Assembly (NCBI GenBank): GCA_029855935.1
Contig: JAGSHN010000020.1
Span: 62,001-126,000, forward strand
Source of the DNA: Candidatus Thorarchaeota archaeon
GTDB taxonomy: Archaea > Asgardarchaeota > Thorarchaeia > Thorarchaeales > Thorarchaeaceae
Length of the DNA stretch: 64,000 nt
Direction of reading: 5' to 3'
Shown piece after piece: positions 42,688 through 53,947 of the stretch. The notes beneath the pieces were generated by a model. That model was given only the letters and a program-made list of their open reading frames with translations. It searched no databases and was not told the DNA's origin. Positions within the stretch are counted from its first letter, which is position 1. Each line of letters starts with the position of its first letter. The position numbers and the translations under genes were made by a program.

Positions 42688-43740
42688 ATGCCAGCATTCG
42701 GAACAACCGATCCTGCCAGAGACCTCGTGCTGATGCTCGACACCGGAGTGGTGCTCTACACTCTTCTCTTTGCCGCAGTGTTTGTGGTTCAGTGGCTGAG
42801 AGCGCCACTGAGAAAGTGGACCGACCCGACACTCTCCTGGGCTATCTTCATGGCGGGAATGGCATTCAACAGCGTGTTCTTCATTCTGTCGGACTTCTTC
42901 CTCGCCTTTCCGCCATGGCTCGAGATCACCACGCGACTTGGATACCTGTCTATGATAGTCGCGCTCATCGCGTTCTTCTTTGTCATAGAGACAATCATTC
43001 CCTACACGCGCTACCACATTGCGTCCGGGCTGGGCGTATTCTTTGCTGTACTGACCATCGTCATTCCCTTCGACCTGATGGACGCTGTCGCACTCATCGC
43101 CAGCCTGGAGACAATGCTCATCCTGTCGCTGTTCCTCCTCTACGCAATCCGCAACACGAGCGGACGAGTTAGACGAAGTATGGAGACGATAGCGGTTGGT
43201 TTCCTCATTGGCTTTCTTGGCTACATCGGGCGCAGCGAGTTTGCATACAACAGCCTCGGGCCGAGTATCTATCTCCTCGCCGCTGTTTTTCTCGTTGCGG
43301 GGCTGCTGCTGTTGGGCGCCACCGTCCTGAGCTCACCCTCCCTTGACGAACTGAACTGGCGAGAACAGCTGCTTGAGTTGTACGTCATAGGTTCAGCAGG
43401 GCTCTTGCTCTACGACCACACATTTCAGCCCGCGACGGATATGGACAGACACCTTGCCGCGGCTGGCATCGCGGGTGTGCAGCTGCTCTTCAAGGAGATA
43501 CTCAATAGCAGGGAGGGGCTCAACTCGCTGGCCGTTGGCGACACTCACGTGATGTTCGGTCACGGAGAGGGCTTCACCGTTGTGCTCATAGCTCGGAAGC
43601 CGTACCGCATCCTTGCTGACAAGATCATCCAGTTCATCCAGATGCTCGAGCTGGTCTTCAGAAGAGAGTTGACCGAGGAGACAGTCCGGCCAATCGACCC
43701 GGAAAGAGCGGGAAGAATAGTGAGTGCGGTGTTTGCATAG
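42688..43740 (+). CDS. seven-helix membrane protein with C-terminal longin/roadblock-like domain
   Basis: 350 residues. Seven membrane helices fit residues about 14-35, 48-72, 82-103, 108-130, 132-152, 165-182 and 190-212. The last ~115 residues are soluble: LELYVIGSAGLLLYDHTF…, GVQLLFKEIL, an HVMFGHGEGFTVVLIARKP sheet and a final helix FIQMLELVFRREL. This beta-beta-alpha-beta-beta-alpha order is that of longin/roadblock domains, which bind small GTPases. The layout suggests a receptor or membrane anchor that recruits a GTPase system. GAGGTT lies upstream of the ATG. Confidence 0.75.
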   Translation: MPAFGTTDPARDLVLMLDTGVVLYTLLFAAVFVVQWLRAPLRKWTDPTLSWAIFMAGMAFNSVFFILSDFFLAFPPWLEITTRLGYLSMIVALIAFFFVIETIIPYTRYHIASGLGVFFAVLTIVIPFDLMDAVALIASLETMLILSLFLLYAIRNTSGRVRRSMETIAVGFLIGFLGYIGRSEFAYNSLGPSIYLLAAVFLVAGLLLLGATVLSSPSLDELNWREQLLELYVIGSAGLLLYDHTFQPATDMDRHLAAAGIAGVQLLFKEILNSREGLNSLAVGDTHVMFGHGEGFTVVLIARKPYRILADKIIQFIQMLELVFRRELTEETVRPIDPERAGRIVSAVFA

Positions 43741-44200: not shown

Positions 44201-44294
44201 ACCGCGAATTGTGCCATCAGAGGAACCTTTTTCTTGGCTTCTGCGGCCGCAGCCGCAATGGGCCTCGTGGGGTCCGAGCTTGGAGAACACCACT

Positions 44295-44915
44295 ATGCAC
44301 GAACGCATCTCGCGCCGCGGAATTTCACATATTCTCGCAGAGGCGGCCACTCTCATGTCGCAGGCGAGATACCGCGAGGCAAGAGAGACTCTGCAGATAG
44401 GTGTTTCACTTGACCCGTCAAACAAACAGCTCTGGCGAGAGATTGTCACCTGTAGTATTGCAATGAGGAGACCAAAGGACGCCATCTCCGCCCTCGACCA
44501 GATCGTACGGATCGACCCGAATGCGGAGGACGCGTGGACTGACAAGGCCTACCTTCACATACTCCTCGACGAGAAAGATCGTGGCATCGAGGCCCTGGAG
44601 AGGAGTCTGAGGCTCCATCCCAGAGACCACAGGAAGTGGTATCTCCTCGCCACCATCCATATGTCCGTTGGGGACTGGCAGTCAGCCACCATTGCGCTTG
44701 AGCGCGCCCTGCAGCTCGACCCAAACTCTGCCGCTGCGTGGTACAACTACGCAGTCTGTTTCTTCTTCCAAGACGAATACGAAAATGCTCTCGCGGCAGC
44801 GGAGATGGCCTTCGCCCTCGACCCCGTCTTGGAACAGGTGGCGGACAGCTGGCTTCAGGTCATCAGGGCTGACGAAGTAGCCCACGAGTCTGATATCGTA
44901 GCGGTGGCCGGGTAG
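44295..44915 (+). CDS. tetratricopeptide-repeat protein
   Basis: 206 residues counted from ATG 44295, with GGAG nine bases upstream; a longer version from GTG 44211 would add a Trp/Pro-rich head. Five or so TPR units are visible: ARYREARETLQIGVSLDPSN, RPKDAISALDQIVRIDPNAED, EKDRGIEALERSLRLHPRDH, DWQSATIALERALQLDPNSAA and DEYENALAAAEMAFALDPV. TPRs scaffold protein complexes. There is no catalytic domain and no membrane segment. Its partner is not apparent from the neighbours. Confidence 0.88.
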   Translation: MHERISRRGISHILAEAATLMSQARYREARETLQIGVSLDPSNKQLWREIVTCSIAMRRPKDAISALDQIVRIDPNAEDAWTDKAYLHILLDEKDRGIEALERSLRLHPRDHRKWYLLATIHMSVGDWQSATIALERALQLDPNSAAAWYNYAVCFFFQDEYENALAAAEMAFALDPVLEQVADSWLQVIRADEVAHESDIVAVAG

Positions 44916-44999: not shown

Positions 45000-46952
45000 C
45001 TACGAGTCTGTCCCCTCTGCGGTAGATGCCATCTCCGAGACCGATGAGTCTGCGGAGCCATTCAGACCACGCAGGGCCTCAAGCTCGTTGCGGAGATTCC
45101 GAATCTCCTCCTTCAGCTTGAACTGCTTCGCCGTCTCAAGGGCCTGATTCAGCGCTTGAACCAATGCCTCATATTCACGTTGTCGCTCTGTCGGGTCCTT
45201 CAGGGAGGCAATCTGATCTCGTTTACGTGGTACGAGCCGGAGAAGACCGCTGATTGCAGCAATGGCCTCATCCCTACTCTGAAGTTCGCGCTCCTCCTCC
45301 TCGTCAGCCGCACTTACGATACGTGTGATCTGGTCGCGGAGATGCTCGTACTCTTTCAGGGCGGACGTGAGAATCTCCCGGACCTCCTTGTCTTCCGCTG
45401 ATGTCTTCTCAAGCTCCCCCTTCAGCCTCTCCACCACTGACTCGAGGAACTGTCTTCGCGCGTCCAACTTCGTGCGCCTGCGCTCCATCCAGCGCCACTC
45501 GGACAGAATGTGCTTGACGAGGGCCTCTGCCTGATTTATCTTCTCCTTGTATTTCTCGGCCTTCTCCATCGCCGCCCTGAGGTCCTCCTCAAGCGTGTCC
45601 GCTATGAACGCGAGATGATAGCTCAGGATGTCCCCCGCACGTGCCTCCGCGAGGACACGGCTCTCCTTCACGGCCCTCTTGGCCTCATCCCACAGGGCCT
45701 CCAGCTCCGAGTCCTCAAGTTCTGTGCGGCCCCTCATCTCGAACTCGTCCGAGACCTGCTCAACCCGTTTCTGGAGTTCCTGAAGCTCCGTAATCTTAGA
45801 CCGAATGAGCGCTCTACCCAGCTTCCGGTTTAGCTCGCGGGTCAGCTTCTCACGTTCGTTCGGCACCTCAAGGAGAGCGTGAGTGTTGTCGATGAGCATC
45901 TGCAGCGCCAGCTCGTACTGTGCAACCGCCTCGGCAAACTGGCCCTTCTGCACGAGCTCATCGCCGCGCTTCTTCTGAACCAGCACACTCTCAAGAACGT
46001 CGTAGGGAGAGGTCTTGAGAGGGCCCTGTGCAAAGTCAACATTGATACTCGTTTCAAGGTCGTGGCCTGCTACGCCGTACAAGACCTGGCAGACGAGCAA
46101 GGATCCGCCTGTGCCCACGTAGATCTGATCGTGGTCAACATCAACAGACTCTATTCTCTCGCCACCTGTATCCAGACGCCCAATCATCTGGCCCGTCTGC
46201 ACCACCCAGATGGTGACCAGTTCCTGAGCGGATGCGGCGACCAGATAGTAGTCGTTGGCCCAGAGAGCAGCCACGGGTTGTGACACAACGTGAGGAAGCA
46301 CCCGGGCGAGTGTCCAGTCCTCTCTCTGCCAGAGTTCGATGTCGCCGTTCCCGAGGCCGGCAATCACAAATTCTTTGTTTCCAGCGAGTGCGGTACAGCG
46401 TTCCTTTGAGTTCAACTCCTTCATTCTTGAGGGGGCTGCACCATTCCTACGTTGCCAGACAACCACATTGCCCTTCTTCTTGTCAGACGTGCAGATGATA
46501 GTGTCGTCGACCCACAGCCCGGTGAGCTCGGACTTGTACAGCTGCCAGCTTGAAGTCTCGTGTGTCTCCTTGTTTATAGAGACAATGCGCCCCTCCCGAG
46601 AGCCGACCAAGAACGTGTCGTGATACATGGTCGACACAAGGGCTTGATAGCTGAGCTCAAACCAACCGACCATCCCCCAGCTCGCCCTGCTCCAGACATA
46701 GACCCGCTTCCCGCACGTCGCGTAGACATTATCCGCGTCAACATGCACAGCAAGCGGAGGCGAACTGGTCTCTCCGAGCGTGGCCACCAGTGACCAGTCC
46801 TTCTTCGACCATACTCTGACAACGTTGTCGCGACAGGCTGCGTAGACGTGGTCCGTATCGTGTGTGATACTGACGACATCAGCCTCAAGATCCACCATCC
46901 TCTCTATGGTGAGAGGCATGGTCCCGTCTGCACCTCCCGGAGAACTCGTCAT
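45000..46952 (-). CDS. beta-propeller (WD40-like) protein with TPR/MIT-like helices and long coiled coil
   Basis: 650 residues. Residues about 15-300 are seven propeller blades, each with a VYAACRDNVVRVWSKKDW- or FVIAGLGNGDIELWQREDW-type closing strand. Residues about 315-385 form a helical hairpin (VQKKRGDELVQKGQFAEAVAQYELALQML) like a TPR or MIT domain. The remaining ~260 residues are charged helix with heptad character, i.e. coiled coil, ending in a disordered Ser/Glu tail. It is transcribed divergently from the FtsZ-like operon across a 276-base region rich in inverted repeats, which suggests joint regulation. Function is inferred only as a scaffold. Confidence 0.85.
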   Translation of the reverse strand: MTSSPGGADGTMPLTIERMVDLEADVVSITHDTDHVYAACRDNVVRVWSKKDWSLVATLGETSSPPLAVHVDADNVYATCGKRVYVWSRASWGMVGWFELSYQALVSTMYHDTFLVGSREGRIVSINKETHETSSWQLYKSELTGLWVDDTIICTSDKKKGNVVVWQRRNGAAPSRMKELNSKERCTALAGNKEFVIAGLGNGDIELWQREDWTLARVLPHVVSQPVAALWANDYYLVAASAQELVTIWVVQTGQMIGRLDTGGERIESVDVDHDQIYVGTGGSLLVCQVLYGVAGHDLETSINVDFAQGPLKTSPYDVLESVLVQKKRGDELVQKGQFAEAVAQYELALQMLIDNTHALLEVPNEREKLTRELNRKLGRALIRSKITELQELQKRVEQVSDEFEMRGRTELEDSELEALWDEAKRAVKESRVLAEARAGDILSYHLAFIADTLEEDLRAAMEKAEKYKEKINQAEALVKHILSEWRWMERRRTKLDARRQFLESVVERLKGELEKTSAEDKEVREILTSALKEYEHLRDQITRIVSAADEEEERELQSRDEAIAAISGLLRLVPRKRDQIASLKDPTERQREYEALVQALNQALETAKQFKLKEEIRNLRNELEALRGLNGSADSSVSEMASTAEGTDS

Positions 46953-46982
46953 GTTACCGACCTGCGGGCAGTGATTGCTGTT

Positions 46983-47019
46983 TAGAAAACGGGTCCGGTC
47001 CCGTTTAAGGCGTTTTCTA
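46983..47019. promoter_or_regulatory. nested inverted repeats in the divergent promoter region
   Basis: TAGAAAACG (46983-46991) is perfectly inverted as CGTTTTCTA (47011-47019). Nested within it, AAACGGG (46987-46993) is inverted as CCCGTTT (47000-47006). A related G/C core, GGGTCCGGTCCC inside and GGGACCGGTCCG near 47053-47065, recurs. They sit between the propeller gene and the FtsZ-like operon and overlap the likely promoter of the former, as an operator would. Confidence 0.5.
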
Positions 47020-47175
47020 GTTGCCGAAAATACGGTGCATCATTCGAAAAACACGGGGACCGGTCCGGATATGGTGAGACAGGCTGATTCTGCCAGCCAG
47101 TGCCCCTTGTTCCTGACGGTCACGACCGGATGTGGGGACTATTTCCTCAGACTGCCCGTCAACATCCAGAATACA

Positions 47176-47183
47176 CTTAAGAT
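47176..47183 (+). promoter_or_regulatory. possible TATA element of the FtsZ-like operon
   Basis: CTTAAGAT would place transcription start near 47205, just upstream of the AGGAGG at 47216-47221. It is a weak match. Confidence 0.3.
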
Positions 47184-47228
47184 AGGCATCATTTCCAGAT
47201 TCAGCCGCACTAACAGGAGGAAGACTAT

Positions 47229-49919
47229 TTGGACTCTCGAAAGTGGCGAAGAGAGCTAGACCGTCTCTCTGAGATAAAAGGGATGCTCGTCACCATAGAT
47301 CCCGCACTTGACGAACAGACTGACAGGATAATGAACCAACTCTACGACGTCTTCGCACGCCTCACGCGGGCCGAGAACGAGCTCGCAAGTGCAGGGTTTA
47401 TGAAACGGAGGAAGCTTCAGTCGGTGGTCAAGAAGGCCAATAGCGACCTTGAGGAGGACTTTATGCGTGCCGTCAGAGAACTAGGGGAACTCTTCAGGAA
47501 AGAACACAGGGAGATCTCTACTCTTCTTCCCAAGCTGACAGCCCTTCGACCTATCGAGGCAAAGGCACTCTCCACAGTCGCGTTTCCGTCGATTGGTGCA
47601 GGAGACTTCTCCGACGCCGAGAGCCTGTACGACTTCGCGGGCAAGTTCACGAAGAGGTATTCGCTTCTCCATCAGGAGATCACAAGGATGGTGAAGAACC
47701 TCCTCGACGAGAACAAGGGTATGGTAGACACCTACGAGCGTCACGTCACTATTGACAGGGGAGAGGTCTCGACCTCGGTCGCCACTGAAGATGTCACATC
47801 GCTCTCGCTTAGGGAGCTTCTCATTCTTCACGAGAAGCTGCTGAAGGAGAGAGAGTATCTCGACAGTCGAAAGGACGAGGTCAGCAGGATGCTTGCCACC
47901 TCACTGTTGTCAGAGGTAGAGGCTCTTCAGGCATCGGTGAGCACAGCCTCAAGATTCGGCCTCGACCTGCCTGTAGACTTCACCCACAAGCTGAGGCTCC
48001 TCGCGCGAGAGGCCTCGTCAGCCACCGATCTGACCACGCTGCTCACGCTTGAGGCACAGCTGCGCACAGCAGAGTCCCAGATGGCGAATATGCTCAGAGA
48101 CAGAATCATCAATGTGAAGCACGAGGTCACGACAAGGATAGTGGACGGGGGGATACCGACCAGCGCGGACATAATTCCTCCCGCGCCAGTTCTCGAACTC
48201 GAGACGGACGACATCGCCACGCTTCTCTCTGCATACCAGAGGATGATGGAGTGGCAGGGCCAAGTGCGCATCGCCCTCAAGGACAAGGTTGAAGAACTCC
48301 TTGAGGAACTCAACCGGGCCAGCGATGTCCCGAAGGACACTGGCATAACCGACGTGGTCGGTCTAAGGAAGTTCATCGCCGATTCGCGCGCAAAGCTCGA
48401 CTCGGCCCAGATAGACGAACTGGTGCGAATCTACACCACTGCCAAGGGGATTCACGAGAAGGCTGTCAAGTTCGTCACGGACAAGATACGCGAATACATC
48501 GCCAGATTCAACGAGCTTGCCACATCTGCCGACAGGGTGCTTGACTATGCACAGTTGAGCAAGAAGGCGCCCAAGGTGGAGGAACTGCAGGGTAGCATAG
48601 TGTACCTTCTAGAGTCGTTGAACCGGCTCAGGGAGGCCGTGGACAGCGGTGTGGCTACATTCAGAGACGCGTGCCTGCAGGAGATTGACGCCATAATCCA
48701 AGACCTTCAGACTATCAAGCCTGCCTACGCAGAGATCTTTGTCCCCATAACACGGGACCTTGAAGAGGGCGCAGATAGAATCAAGACGCTCAATGACTTC
48801 GCCCAGATCAGGGGTGAGATGAGGGCCATAAAAGATGGCATCCTTGTCAAGGCCAAAGAGGCCCTTGAGAACCTCAGATACAGGCTCGGTGTGAAGATCA
48901 GGCTCGCCGCAGCCAAGCTGATGGGAGCCGGTTTCGAGATACCAAAGGAGGCACAGGAGGCCATTGCCGAGCTCAACAGCATCGGTGTGGCTGCTGATAA
49001 TGTCTTCAGCCTGCCGACTATCGCACGCAAGATGGTGGAGCTGTATGAACGCAAGATCAGCAAGACGGTCATCGACACGCTGATTGAGAAGATCGAGGAG
49101 CTCATCAACAGCTTTGAGAAGGCCAAGGACATCGGTGTGGAGGTCGACTCGGAGCTTGAGACACTCTACGCAATTCGCGACAACCCACCGAGAGACCTCG
49201 AAGAGGCGGCAGAGGCCTTCGACAAGATCATGCAGATGACCACATCCGAGAGGCTGCATGAGAAGATCAAGGAACGGGCGAATCAGGCGTATGTGCAGAT
49301 AGGAGGTGCCCTGTCAATCTTTGAGAGGCTCGGGATGTCTGAGTTTGTCGGGCGACTCAAGACGCTTCTTGAGGAGGTGCCCCAGCAGCTTGAGCATCAG
49401 AGCAAACACATCAACGAGGCTCTTGAGGTGTGCCTCACTCTCGCAAGTGTACAGAATGAGATGCTCACTGTGATCAAGGGTGTTGCCGAGAAAGAGAGCC
49501 AGCGCTTCGAACAGAGGCTGAGAAACGCAAGCAATTACTACTCGACCATAGAGAGAGTCATCGAGAAATATCCAAAGGACTTCTCACGCCTCGTCTTCCC
49601 GGTTGAGCGTATCCAGCAGCTCGAGCAGCAGATGAGGGAGACAACCGACCTTGAGGAGGCACTCCAGGTCTTCGAGATGCTCCAAGAGCTCAGAGAGGAG
49701 TGGTTGCACCAGGTCGAGAAGATGGACGACTGGCACAAGAGCCTGAGAATGTATATGACAGGATTTAGTCCGACAATGAGTGCAGACGCTCGCGAGAAGT
49801 TCATTGAGGAACAGGTCAAGAAGATACGAGAGACCTTCAGTAGAGAGGACATCAGTTCCTATCTGTCGTGGGCACTCAGAGAGATTGCAGAGACAATGAC
49901 CAGGGCAAGGGAACAATGA
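47229..49919 (+). CDS. large helical (coiled-coil/spectrin-like) protein of FtsZ-like operon
   Basis: 896 residues, almost wholly helical and charged, without signal or membrane segment. A loosely repeated unit of about 100 residues can be seen, where a long helix ends in a short G-h-(D/E)-h-P loop (FGLDLPVDF, GGIPTSADI, AGFEIPKEA, IGVEVDSEL) followed by two shorter helices. It looks like a rod or filament-associated protein. The TTG start has AGGAGG seven bases upstream, so translation should be strong. The FtsZ-like GTPase gene starts about 15 bases after its stop, making an operon. No homologue is recognised; a role in organising or bundling the GTPase polymer is inference. Confidence 0.85.
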   Translation: MDSRKWRRELDRLSEIKGMLVTIDPALDEQTDRIMNQLYDVFARLTRAENELASAGFMKRRKLQSVVKKANSDLEEDFMRAVRELGELFRKEHREISTLLPKLTALRPIEAKALSTVAFPSIGAGDFSDAESLYDFAGKFTKRYSLLHQEITRMVKNLLDENKGMVDTYERHVTIDRGEVSTSVATEDVTSLSLRELLILHEKLLKEREYLDSRKDEVSRMLATSLLSEVEALQASVSTASRFGLDLPVDFTHKLRLLAREASSATDLTTLLTLEAQLRTAESQMANMLRDRIINVKHEVTTRIVDGGIPTSADIIPPAPVLELETDDIATLLSAYQRMMEWQGQVRIALKDKVEELLEELNRASDVPKDTGITDVVGLRKFIADSRAKLDSAQIDELVRIYTTAKGIHEKAVKFVTDKIREYIARFNELATSADRVLDYAQLSKKAPKVEELQGSIVYLLESLNRLREAVDSGVATFRDACLQEIDAIIQDLQTIKPAYAEIFVPITRDLEEGADRIKTLNDFAQIRGEMRAIKDGILVKAKEALENLRYRLGVKIRLAAAKLMGAGFEIPKEAQEAIAELNSIGVAADNVFSLPTIARKMVELYERKISKTVIDTLIEKIEELINSFEKAKDIGVEVDSELETLYAIRDNPPRDLEEAAEAFDKIMQMTTSERLHEKIKERANQAYVQIGGALSIFERLGMSEFVGRLKTLLEEVPQQLEHQSKHINEALEVCLTLASVQNEMLTVIKGVAEKESQRFEQRLRNASNYYSTIERVIEKYPKDFSRLVFPVERIQQLEQQMRETTDLEEALQVFEMLQELREEWLHQVEKMDDWHKSLRMYMTGFSPTMSADAREKFIEEQVKKIRETFSREDISSYLSWALREIAETMTRAREQ

Positions 49920-49933
49920 GGTAGGTGACAGGA

Positions 49934-51310
49934 ATGCAAAGGAGAAGCGGTGAGGAAGACACCACCAAGGCAGCCGAGGTCTTTGCCATCGGCATCGGAG
50001 AGTGCGGTTCGAACATTGTGGGATCGTACCTAAAGGCCAGCCGCGACAGGAGGCTGCCACAGCGTGTGCGCGGCTACCTGTTGATGAACACTGACAGAGC
50101 AGACCTGACGAAGGTCCGCGAGAAATACGGCATTCCGAAGGAGCACACGATGCTATACGGTGCCAGCGAGATCGGTGTCGGTGGCCGCTTTATGGACGGC
50201 TACAATGCCGTGATGGAGTCAAAGGACATCATCTTTGACCAGCTGAGCAACTTGGGTTTCGAAGGCGTCTCGGGCTTCTGTATCTTCACCAGCCTCGGTG
50301 GAGGCACCGGGTGCGGCGGCACTCCTGCCCTGATAGAGCTTCTCAAGCAGCGCTTTCAGGAGGAGGAGGGAAGACGTATCTTTGTGTACGTCATCGGCGT
50401 GTTGCCCTTCGAGGGACAGTCCTCTGAGGCGCTCAACTCCATCTGGGCCGTGTCGAAGCTGCTGAGGCTGCAGCTCCAGGAACGTGGAGCAGACCTGACG
50501 ATCCTGCTGAGCAACAGAACGATGCTCAGAAGAATCCTACAATCCCGTACGGCCGACAGTGTTGACTACCTTCAGAGGGAGCTCAATATTGACATCGCGG
50601 ACATATCCCAGATAGAGAAGATGGTACCCTCGACCCTTGACTCTGCGGGCGAGCTTGAGCAGAGGACAGAGCAGGCTTTTGTCGAGCTCGTCAACCCGCT
50701 CGCGTTGGATGTCGTCGAGGCGATGCTCTCGCCGGGTGTCCACGAGCCCAACAAAGACGTCTTCCCGACGACCGACCTGGCTGACTATGCACGCAAGCTC
50801 GATCCTGTTGTGGTCCCCGCACTCTATACCGATGTCGGTCTGATTCCGGACGCGGGCAGCATGCCACAGCAGCTGAAAGCGATGATAGACTACGCTGTCA
50901 AGGAGTGCTCCTATGCCGATGTTGGTGACCAGCCCAACGCGGAGAGCGTCTACTACGTCTTCAGCGGCCCAAGACACATCTCAAAGGCCGAGTTTGGGAT
51001 GCACCTCAAGGAGGCCCTTGACAAGTTCATTGCACCAGGTGCTGCCATCACACCGTGCTACGTTCAATACGAGAACCCCGATGCACCAGTGAATCTGCTC
51101 CTATTGCTTGGTCTGCCCAAGATACCAGAGCTTATTCAGCTGATCAATGAGGCCACCCAGCTCGTCAACCTTCACAGTGGTCCTTCGCCACTGAAACAGA
51201 GCTGGTTTATGCGCTCAAAGGGCGTGCCCAGGAAGGAGCTTGTGAACGCCATCAATGACTTCAGGGAACTGTTCAGCTACTACATGGATGCAGGCACTCC
51301 AGTTCAGTGA
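49934..51310 (+). CDS. divergent FtsZ/tubulin-superfamily GTPase
   Basis: 458 residues (FtsZ is usually 350-400). FAIGIGECGSNIVGSYL is the T1 phosphate loop, YLLMNTDRADL the T3-like strand and FTSLGGGTGCGGTPALIELL the tubulin/FtsZ signature (normally GGGTG(S/T)G), at about residues 118-138. YVIGVLPFEG and LNSIWAVSKLL follow, the latter like the guanine-binding helix. The T7 loop, normally N-x-D-x-x-D, reads NPLALD (about 255-260), keeping one catalytic Asp. The C-terminal 170 residues form an activation-type domain and a helical tail. It is not a standard cell-division FtsZ. ATG 49934 follows AGGTGAC; GTG 49925 is possible. It lies between two helical-protein genes. Confidence 0.9.
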   Translation: MQRRSGEEDTTKAAEVFAIGIGECGSNIVGSYLKASRDRRLPQRVRGYLLMNTDRADLTKVREKYGIPKEHTMLYGASEIGVGGRFMDGYNAVMESKDIIFDQLSNLGFEGVSGFCIFTSLGGGTGCGGTPALIELLKQRFQEEEGRRIFVYVIGVLPFEGQSSEALNSIWAVSKLLRLQLQERGADLTILLSNRTMLRRILQSRTADSVDYLQRELNIDIADISQIEKMVPSTLDSAGELEQRTEQAFVELVNPLALDVVEAMLSPGVHEPNKDVFPTTDLADYARKLDPVVVPALYTDVGLIPDAGSMPQQLKAMIDYAVKECSYADVGDQPNAESVYYVFSGPRHISKAEFGMHLKEALDKFIAPGAAITPCYVQYENPDAPVNLLLLLGLPKIPELIQLINEATQLVNLHSGPSPLKQSWFMRSKGVPRKELVNAINDFRELFSYYMDAGTPVQ

Positions 51311-51324
51311 GCGGAGGGAACGCC

Positions 51325-52401
51325 GTGAGTGAAGAGTTCAAGATTGAGGACTTGATGGACAGGCTGCTCCTGATCGAGACCCTGAATGCAACACTCATTC
51401 ACTTCCTGCTGAGCTCCCAGCTGGCGGGCGAGATCGATCCTGACAGAGTCGACTCGCTGACACAGGGTATCAAGAGGACACGACGATGGCTTGATGAGAT
51501 AGTGTCCAATGAGAGCATCCCGTCATCAACGGCAAACATCCTCAGCCTCATAGTGAAAAGACTCGCCCAGCTTGAGAGCCTCCTCCCGAAGCTCTCTCAG
51601 AGGGCGATGGAGGCTGAGAAGAAGAGCGCCGCACAAGAGATACTATCCCTACTTGAGGGAGGACCGAGCGCGACGCCAGCACAGGTCCGGCCACAGGACG
51701 CTGCTGCACCTGGTGGCCAACGCGGTGGGCCCTCACTGGTCCCTCTCGTCGAGGCCTCCGAGGAAGTGGAGGAGAAGGAGCCGTATCGAAAGGTAGACAT
51801 TGAGGACGATGAGTGGGGCCTCATCTCTCAGACTCAGCGTATGATTCAGCAGTACTCCAGACGCTGTCACGTGCTTCTGCCCACATTCTGGTTTGAGGTA
51901 ATCAGAGAGCTCCACAAGTACCAGTCGGACTCGCCGTACATAGCAGACGCCATTCAGATACCGAGCGACTTTCTGATCAAGATTGTGAAGGGCCTTCTCA
52001 CAGAGGCGCCCGGGGCGCGACTGCTCCAGGATCTGATGAACCAGCGGCCGCAGGAGAGCAGCCTGTCACCTAGTGAGGCCGAGCGGATCGAACGGGCCGT
52101 CGCGAAGTACTTTGCGGGTCTTGAGGACCTGCTACGCGGTGACACCCCCAAGGTCGACGAGAAGGTCGCGGAGGCGCAGATGGCCTTCGATGGCTTCGGC
52201 TGGGGCGGTCCAGAGCTAGAGAAGCGAATCATAAAGAGAATCAATCAGAGATGTCAAGAGGCGTTGCAGAACGCAGAGGAGGACTCTGACCCGCATAGGC
52301 GTGTCATCTACGCAGAGGTGACCAAGCTCCTGTGCAAACTCCAACACGCGACGCTTGCGGAGCCGAGGCTGAGAGAGATCCTTGCCCAGATGAAGCCATA
52401 G
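51325..52401 (+). CDS. helical partner protein of FtsZ-like operon
   Basis: 358 residues counted from GTG 51325, which has GGAGGG six bases upstream; GTG 51307 overlaps the GTPase stop and is the alternative. An N-terminal helical domain (about 1-115) is joined by a Pro/Ala/Gly/Glu-rich, probably disordered linker (about 118-165) to a second helical domain (about 170-358) with a conserved-looking aromatic patch LLPTFWFEVIRELHKYQ. The arrangement suggests an adaptor with two binding heads on a flexible tether. No family is recognised. Tight linkage to the GTPase gene argues that it binds that polymer or its rod-like partner. Confidence 0.82.
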   Translation: MSEEFKIEDLMDRLLLIETLNATLIHFLLSSQLAGEIDPDRVDSLTQGIKRTRRWLDEIVSNESIPSSTANILSLIVKRLAQLESLLPKLSQRAMEAEKKSAAQEILSLLEGGPSATPAQVRPQDAAAPGGQRGGPSLVPLVEASEEVEEKEPYRKVDIEDDEWGLISQTQRMIQQYSRRCHVLLPTFWFEVIRELHKYQSDSPYIADAIQIPSDFLIKIVKGLLTEAPGARLLQDLMNQRPQESSLSPSEAERIERAVAKYFAGLEDLLRGDTPKVDEKVAEAQMAFDGFGWGGPELEKRIIKRINQRCQEALQNAEEDSDPHRRVIYAEVTKLLCKLQHATLAEPRLREILAQMKP

Positions 52402-52516: not shown

Positions 52517-53947
52517 GTGAGCAATCTGGACAAGATGTTCAACCCAAGAACGGCAGCAGTGGTCGGTGTGTCGACATCGAACCCGTTCTCACCCGGAAAC
52601 GTCATCTTCCGAAAGCTACGTTTTGAGAATGGTATCCCGACTTATCCCATCAACCCAAAGGGAGGCACTGTGGAAGGACAGAAGGTCTACAAGTCAATAT
52701 CAGAGGCCCCTGACGGCATCGACCTTGCTGTCATCTCTGTTCCTGCGAGATACGTTCCAGATGTATTGGAGGAGTGCGGCGAGAAGGGTATCAAGGCCGT
52801 CATCGTGGTCTCGGGCGGATTCAGTGAGACGGGAAAGACTGGGGCCACGCTACAAGAGGAAATAGTCGAGATTGCCAACAAGCACGGGATTACTATGGTC
52901 GGGCCGAACTGCATCGGTGTGTATGTGCCCGACACGGTCGACACGTTCTTTCTTCCGTCGGAGCGCGTCGCTCGGCCAAGGCGCGGCCACGTTGCCATCA
53001 TCTCTCAGAGCGGAGGCTGGCTCGTGGAGCGGCTTGAGGAGTTTGCTGATAGAGGTGTCGGCATCGCGGCTGCAGTCTCGATAGGCAATCAGGCTCAGAC
53101 TAAGATCCACGACTTCGTCAGATACTTCGGTCGACGCAAGGACATCCGTGCAATCCTTGCCTACATAGAGGGATTCGGCGAGGGCGAGGGTAGAGAGTTC
53201 GTCAGGGCCTGCGATGAGATCACGCCGAAGATGCCTGTCGTCGTGTTCAAGGGAGGCCAGTCAGAGGCCGGACACAGGGCAACGCAGAGTCACACATCGT
53301 CTCTCGCAGGAAACGGTGCTGTCGCATCTGCGGCCTTTAGGCAGCACGGCGTGATTGAGGCAACAGACGAGGACGAGGTGATGGCGTACTCCAAGGTCTT
53401 CTCCTTCGAGTTCAGGCCGATGCTCGGTCCCAACATCGGATGCCTGACAGTCAGTGGTGGTCACGGCGTCATTGCAACAGACGAGGCAGACCACTATGGT
53501 CTCAAGATGCCTCCGTTCAACGAGGAGGACCAAGAGGCTATGCGCGCCGTTATGACACCAGCATACCAGGGAATTGCCTCGTTCAGGAATCCGTGCGACC
53601 TGACGGGTAGTGCCTCGGATGTCGACTATGAAAGGGTCCTCGACGTCATGCTCAAGATTCACTACATTGACGCTGCACTACTCCTACTGCTACCGTACGC
53701 ACCGGGAATCTCACTCCAGATTGGCGCGCGGGTGGCCAATGTCGCGAAGCAGTACAACAAGGCCGTGGTCGCGTACGTACCGGACCTTGAGAAATACGAG
53801 GTCATCATCCGCGGGTTCGAGATCAATGGCATCCCGGTGGGCGACACCATCGAGGAGGCGGTCCAGATGCTCAACGGCATCTGGATGAGATCCCAGTATC
53901 TGATGCGAATAGGCGTCCTCAAGAAGAAGAGATCGAGCCCGACATAG
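52517..53947 (+). CDS. ADP-forming acetyl/acyl-CoA synthetase, alpha (CoA-binding) subunit
   Basis: 476 residues, typical of the separate alpha subunit of archaeal ACD enzymes, which convert acyl-CoA, ADP and phosphate to acid, CoA and ATP. LDKMFNPRTAAVVGVS and NVIFRKLRFENGIPTYPINPKG form the CoA-binding Rossmann domain. GPNCIGVYVPD, IISQSGGWL and the phospho-His motif SHTSSLAG (His at about 260) form the ligase domains. No ATP-grasp beta subunit follows, so the partner must be encoded elsewhere. Substrate range is not readable. GTG start after GAGAGG; clear TATA box upstream. Confidence 0.92.
   Translation: MSNLDKMFNPRTAAVVGVSTSNPFSPGNVIFRKLRFENGIPTYPINPKGGTVEGQKVYKSISEAPDGIDLAVISVPARYVPDVLEECGEKGIKAVIVVSGGFSETGKTGATLQEEIVEIANKHGITMVGPNCIGVYVPDTVDTFFLPSERVARPRRGHVAIISQSGGWLVERLEEFADRGVGIAAAVSIGNQAQTKIHDFVRYFGRRKDIRAILAYIEGFGEGEGREFVRACDEITPKMPVVVFKGGQSEAGHRATQSHTSSLAGNGAVASAAFRQHGVIEATDEDEVMAYSKVFSFEFRPMLGPNIGCLTVSGGHGVIATDEADHYGLKMPPFNEEDQEAMRAVMTPAYQGIASFRNPCDLTGSASDVDYERVLDVMLKIHYIDAALLLLLPYAPGISLQIGARVANVAKQYNKAVVAYVPDLEKYEVIIRGFEINGIPVGDTIEEAVQMLNGIWMRSQYLMRIGVLKKKRSSPT

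Follow-up and report, generated by a model that had tools for sequence, protein, structure and literature searches.

A tubulin/FtsZ-superfamily GTPase encoded with two conserved helical partner proteins in Asgard archaea

The cytoskeleton of Asgard archaea, the closest microbes to eukaryotes, is central to the origin of eukaryotic cells and has so far been studied through actin, ESCRT and FtsZ, joined by true tubulins in a few genomes. Related proteins have been described elsewhere. One is the Asg.Tub group, for which the main text of Santana-Molina et al. 2023 (PMC9871819) gives Heimdallarchaeia and Lokiarchaeia as sources and notes coiled-coil neighbours. FtsZl1 lacks a recognisable T6–H7 region, has a coiled-coil region and occurs in a vWA/GTPase/kinase/OmpA context (Makarova and Koonin 2010, PMC2875224). 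EzrA of Firmicutes is a spectrin-like FtsZ regulator built from triple-helix repeats (PMC4243239). Here, a 64,000-nucleotide stretch of a Candidatus Thorarchaeota genome (contig JAGSHN010000020.1, positions 62,001 to 126,000; hereafter the window) was analysed, in which a further tubulin/FtsZ-superfamily GTPase is encoded between two constant partners, referred to as the rod and the adaptor. Thorarchaeota have this family as a core component, and it also occurs in several further classes, hodarchaea among them. The papers on Asgard tubulin (PMC13394414, PMC13371889), Odin FtsZ (PMC12583498) and FtsZl1 (PMC2875224) describe other proteins, and no description of the three-gene module was found in the open-access literature searched.

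Linkage and distribution of the three genes

The reading favoured here, with a probability of roughly 0.6, is an Asgard-specific cytoskeletal module that works apart from the division ring and in which a GTP-driven filament would be joined by a spectrin-like rod, acting as crosslinker, and by a linker protein. A model's note made from the letters of the window alone (the sequence-only reading) had already proposed that the GTPase and its neighbours form one system, and the rod and adaptor proved to be kept with it across several Asgard classes, far beyond chance. The rod lies directly upstream of the GTPase in all 50 named public loci with upstream sequence, the adaptor lies downstream in 45 of the 48 with downstream sequence, and gaps within conserved operons are typically below 20 bases. 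The three exceptions for the adaptor are second copies in hodarchaea, in which the rod is kept and the adaptor is not recognisable; in two such copies (L093 and L094), Gtr1/RagA-type small GTPases are encoded next downstream of the rod and GTPase pair. The adaptor is 8 kb distant in one Thorarchaeota genome (G013), and a 1,202-residue gene stands between rod and GTPase in one hodarchaeal locus (L171). It was also noted that hodarchaeal operons carry a gene for a coiled-coil protein of ~295 residues 3′ of the adaptor (L167, 11959–12852; L171, 7674–8549), the L171 protein having a weak, sub-cut-off match to EzrA.

Co-occurrence was counted across 145 Asgard genomes that are at least 85% complete. 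The rod was found in 49, the adaptor in 48 and both in 47, which gives P ~1e-34 on the assumption of independent genomes, which these are not. All of these genomes fall in families having the GTPase, and those with only the rod or only the adaptor look like cases of contig breaks. Two apparent losses were set aside, namely that of the GTPase in G028, where the rod ends at a contig edge, and a truncated rod in 'bin8' (L053/L044), where the assembly has a stretch of N. Lineages with the three-gene module are Thor-, Hermod-, Borr/Sif-, Baldr- and Hod/Heimdallarchaeota, and the GTPase is present as a single-copy gene in nearly all Thorarchaeota genomes. Roughly two thirds of Asgard genomes lack the module, among them those of the largest family (f2). 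A scan of 84,980 species with two peptide patterns, which can miss distant relatives, found the GTPase family in no other phylum.

Identity of the GTPase to that of the window is ~60–64% in Hermod- and Borrarchaeota and 44% in Baldrarchaeota, whereas that of the partners is 18–29% (about 27% for Thorarchaeota against Hermod- and Borrarchaeota). A conserved GTPase with diverged partners is the pattern that a constrained polymer with faster-evolving binders would be expected to leave. Some public records carry titles that appear wrong: L060, L071 and L100 are titled Lokiarchaeota (RBin_111, A3 metabat bin) or Odinarchaeota (AUK032), but their GTPase identity and genome family place RBin_111 and the A3 metabat bin with Thorarchaeota and AUK032 with Baldrarchaeota. 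The two 'Lokiarchaeota' records have 84% identity to the GTPase of the window and correspond to genomes of the same family as the window genome (G020, G015).

The window genome (2.97 Mb, 97% complete) is of the same genus as isolate B65_G9 (G001/QMYR01), and relatives of its GTPase with public names at 82–95% identity are nearly all Candidatus Thorarchaeota. The features of the locus, in window coordinates, are:

47229–49919, plus strand: rod, conserved partner 1, a predicted all-helical repeat protein of 896 residues with a TTG start and an AGGAGG ribosome site
49934–51310, plus strand: tubulin/FtsZ-superfamily GTPase, 458 residues from ATG 49934
51325–52401, plus strand: adaptor, conserved partner 2, a predicted helical protein of 358 residues with a GTG start
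46953–47228, no strand: divergent intergenic region of 276 bp separating the WD40 gene from the rod operon, the presumed promoter region
45000–46952, minus strand: WD40-type propeller and coiled-coil protein of 650 residues, divergently transcribed, a Thorarchaeota-only accessory

All four open reading frames were found at the positions and with the lengths first reported, and the small gaps and strong ribosome sites described for them were borne out. Fourteen bases separate the rod stop at 49919 from the GTPase start, and another 14 separate the GTPase stop at 51310 from the adaptor start. Good Shine-Dalgarno sites precede the rod TTG at 47229 (after ACAGGAGGAAGACTAT), the GTPase ATG at 49934 (after GAGGTAGGTGACAGGA) and the adaptor GTG at 51325 (after GAGCGGAGGGAACGCC). 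An in-frame GTG at 49925 is an alternative start for the GTPase, giving 461 residues.

The GTPase and its partner proteins

The GTPase matches PF00091 with 70 bits (cut-off 33), the same family was matched in 12 of 12 aligned members, and the tubulin/FtsZ signature picked out by the sequence-only reading, GGGTGCGG, is the T4 loop of this PF00091-positive protein. Across the family, T1 reads GECG[S/G]N, T4 GGGTGCG and T6 SN, and both aspartates of the T7 motif DxxD are kept in 16 of 16 members. Asn257 of H7 is invariant; an Asn is also found here in tubulin and CetZ, as opposed to an Asp in FtsZ. In the family, 77–90 residues separate the T6 Asn from the first T7 Asp, versus 43–46 in the rows for FtsZ, CetZ and Asgard tubulins, with the family-specific extension sitting mostly between T6 and H7. 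This extension, together with the GECG[SG]N and GGGTGCG motifs, provides sequence markers for finding the family. A long C-terminal tail is absent, the last conserved residues (L449-F450) being 11 residues from the end, and no C-terminal linker and peptide for SepF/FtsA was recognised.

Two other tubulin-superfamily proteins of the same genome are ordinary FtsZ (419.6 and 408.4 bits against TIGR00065), and SepF is also encoded. The GTPase scores 33.1 bits against this equivalog, far below the cut-off of 295.2. Ordinary FtsZ was likewise present in related genomes, with two in Thorarchaeota and, judged by counts, seemingly one in hodarchaeal genomes. Maximum likelihood trees were built from 40 rows that included long Natrinema rows, and again without the latter. 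The GTPase family formed one clade with support of 100/100 in the 40-row tree and 100/99 in the other, and the clades of Asgard FtsZ (100/100), CetZ (100/99) and tubulins (100/100) in the 40-row tree all excluded it; separate clades persisted after the Natrinema rows were dropped. Profile comparison with hhalign gave E values of 6.8e-15 for CetZ, 6.8e-10 for Asgard tubulins and 2.7e-8 for Asgard FtsZ. A profile search of the PDB returned CetZ 4b46 as best match (E 8.9e-14) with tubulins next, and no FtsZ among the best 60 matches apart from CetZ entries, whose deposited names are 'cell division protein FtsZ' or 'tubulin/FtsZ'. Membership of ordinary FtsZ1/2 and of CetZ was ruled out by trees, scores and motifs, in agreement with the distinctness first proposed, and the GTPase is likewise neither an Asgard tubulin nor the published FtsZl1.

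The rod was predicted by AlphaFold to be helical from end to end (mean pLDDT 87.6), although a pTM of 0.39 leaves its overall shape and bundle geometry uncertain. Long-short-long helical units recur ~130 residues apart, and profile comparison brings three of these (R1–R3) into register (E 1e-4 to 5e-4), in keeping with the repeat-built helical protein of the sequence-only reading. Rod length is 896 residues in Thorarchaeota, ~1,020 in Baldrarchaeota and 1,140–1,310 in hodarchaeal and heimdallarchaeal genomes, a lengthening as expected of a repeat rod. No N-terminal transmembrane helix was recognised in it, its highest 19-residue hydropathy being 1.27. A structure search of the rod against the PDB gave a best match at E 0.1, with neither EzrA listed nor a spectrin-type relationship recovered; dynein tail and PRC1 were discarded as structural relatives of rod or adaptor, with E values of 0.1–0.7 that are not evidence. 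The adaptor had been called two-headed, and its model indeed has two helical domains (residues 7–110 and 155–358) joined by a disordered linker. The N-terminal domain is a predicted three-helix bundle, and the C-terminal helical domain (pLDDT ~97) carries the conserved motifs LTEAPxARLLQ and GxxxLEKR. Neither window partner has a Pfam family above cut-off, and searches of Pfam, NCBIfam and the PDB revealed no recognisable counterpart of either.

The sequence-only reading had also counted the divergent 650-residue protein as a scaffold of the system, with propeller, TPR- or MIT-like and coiled-coil parts. WD40-type propeller matches do cover residues ~20–290, mostly below curated cut-offs, and helices and coiled coil follow after ~290; the TPR match is weak and below cut-off, and nothing supports MIT. 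This gene is upstream in nearly all Thorarchaeota loci and absent from those of Hermod-, Borr-, Baldr- and Hodarchaeota, which removes it from the conserved core; it is at most an accessory of Thorarchaeota. Convergent to it, a TPR protein (44211–44915, plus strand) keeps its position in nearly all Thorarchaeota loci. An ADP-forming acyl-CoA synthetase alpha-type gene (52517–53947, plus strand) follows the adaptor in Thorarchaeota, and one with ~35% identity is likewise found in the Borr/Sifarchaeota loci L036, L037, L081, L082, L085 and L086. Further off, a 350-residue protein (42688–43740, plus strand) combines membrane segments with a soluble C-terminal region, which by eye looks longin/roadblock-like, and has no Pfam match.

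Proposed mechanism and rival explanations

In FtsZ, the T7 acids of one subunit reach across the filament interface to complete the GTPase site of its neighbour. A catalytically competent polymer would thus be expected from the invariant T7 aspartates of the present family. In the proposed mechanism, the GTPase would bind GTP and polymerise head-to-tail into protofilaments, with hydrolysis by way of these aspartates upon docking of the next subunit. The rod would serve as a long spectrin-like helical spacer or crosslinker, binding filaments and either fixing the distance between them or tying them to another structure. With its two helical heads held by a flexible linker, the adaptor could bridge filament and rod, or filament and cargo or membrane. 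Bundling by the rod and the role of the adaptor are reasonable suggestions from sequence and model. The two ordinary FtsZ with SepF presumably make the division ring, with the module apart from it, and its likeliest role would be in shaping the cell, in protrusions or in organising internal membranes.

Several observations weigh against this reading. The hhalign alignments with known families end at about residue 234, in the N-terminal half of the GTPase, so that T7 is assigned from the multiple alignment and the motif, and the assignment of the C-terminal domain to the tubulin/FtsZ type is putative. Approximately unbiased (AU) tests left a sister relationship to FtsZ unrejected (p 0.126) and one to CetZ borderline (p 0.052). 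No transmembrane segment is predicted in rod, GTPase or adaptor, leaving membrane attachment unexplained, and no significant solved-structure relative of rod or adaptor was found by sequence or fold. Contacts between the three proteins, like polymerisation itself, are putative.

The strongest rival, though an unlikely one, is that the module adds a third, auxiliary component to the division ring, in which the GTPase would co-assemble with FtsZ1/FtsZ2 and the rod would act like bacterial EzrA. Genomes with the GTPase also have FtsZ, the predicted ~130-residue helical units of the rod resemble EzrA triple-helix repeats (PMC4243239), and the weak, sub-cut-off EzrA match beside a hodarchaeal operon points the same way. 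Set against this, most Asgards divide without the module, the GTPase lacks the FtsZ C-terminal tail for SepF and sits on a long separate branch, and the rod has neither an N-terminal membrane anchor nor a structural match to EzrA. It is a somewhat more doubtful proposal that the GTPase is an ancient sister of Asgard and eukaryotic tubulins, not of FtsZ, with rod and adaptor as its filament-associated proteins, which would make it a second tubulin-type cytoskeleton, predating eukaryotes, in Asgards other than the AtubAB/OdinTubulin lineages; tubulins and the GTPase family were joined at 97/92 in one tree, with a long-branch warning. Less likely again is a diverged CetZ-type filament for cell shape or motility, with a haloarchaeal CetZ-like role plus extra partners. 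CetZ is the nearest known family by both profile scores and shares the H7 Asn, but it forms its own clade, its T7 is VDSSE where the GTPase has the FtsZ-type TDLAD, it has no T6–T7 extension, and the CetZ genes compared have no such partners.

A GTP switch that does not polymerise and only nucleates a rod-adaptor complex is improbable: it would suit a protein with predicted polymerisation only, no long C-terminal tail and a large insert between T6 and H7, but the T7 aspartates, which act across the interface in FtsZ, are invariant, and the GTPase is strongly conserved across classes. Least probable is a TubZ- or PhuZ-like system of DNA partitioning or of a virus or plasmid. A tubulin-type GTPase within a small operon is what such a system would show; against it stand the single-copy presence in nearly all Thorarchaeota genomes, three core proteins in which no DNA-binding domain was recognised, and only one distant haloarchaeal plasmid homologue. 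A viral, plasmid or defence element was also rejected, as no relatives were found in viral contigs (IMG/VR), PHROGs or PADLOC. The proposed filament module offers three proteins that can be expressed and tested together, and a route to asking what a tubulin-type filament does outside the division ring in the closest relatives of eukaryotes.

Comparison with described systems

Archaeal FtsZ1/FtsZ2 (TIGR00065, PF00091) share with the GTPase the GTPase domain, loops T1–T6 and the T7 DxxD, but differ in having a C-terminal tail, an H7 Asp and ~40 fewer residues between T6 and T7, and in forming a separate clade. CetZ of haloarchaea and methanogens comprises the best-scoring relatives, with an N-terminal GTPase half that aligns and the common H7 Asn, and differs in T7 motif, insert, clade and gene context. 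Like the GTPase, the Asgard tubulins OdinTubulin and AtubA/B/C (PMC13394414, PMC13371889) are tubulin-superfamily proteins of Asgards found beside FtsZ; they form a separate 100/100 clade, with NxDLxxL in place of the FtsZ-type TDLAD at T7. Genomes with a tandem AtubA/B-type pair (G086) or an Odin-type tubulin (G038) are without rod and adaptor.

FtsZl1 (Tubulin_2) is likewise an FtsZ-like GTPase encoded beside conventional FtsZ in its own operon, and the sequence-only reading had invoked this family. That label does not hold in the Makarova–Koonin sense: PF13809 scores 17.9 bits (cut-off 27), T6, H7 and T7 are intact, the partners are others, and the scanned neighbours include no vWA, kinase, P-loop GTPase or OmpA protein. 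EzrA is a helical-bundle repeat rod tied to an FtsZ-type protein, as the rod described here may also be; the rod repeats are ~130 rather than ~100 residues, with no transmembrane anchor and no sequence or fold match.

The Asg.Tub proteins (PMC9871819) resemble the present family, by the description in the main text, as Asgard paralogues outside FtsZ1/2 with coiled-coil neighbours and an unstable position between CetZ and tubulin. That main text describes no rod-GTPase-adaptor operon. On description rather than sequence, the group may overlap some of the GTPases considered here, and Lokiarchaeota labels can mislead, as RBin_111 and the A3 metabat bin belong with the window family. The Halo.Tub-like cluster on Natrinema plasmid NZ_CP082248 also places FtsZ-like GTPases among large uncharacterised proteins encoded on one strand (three FtsZ-like genes within 664000–692000, L164), and it was a weak tree neighbour of the GTPase family (86/62). 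It differs in its long branch and in lacking the T6–T7 extension; its neighbours were rejected as rod homologues, with neither rod nor adaptor homologues detected. The Natrinema cluster may be a parallel multi-protein tubulin-type machine.

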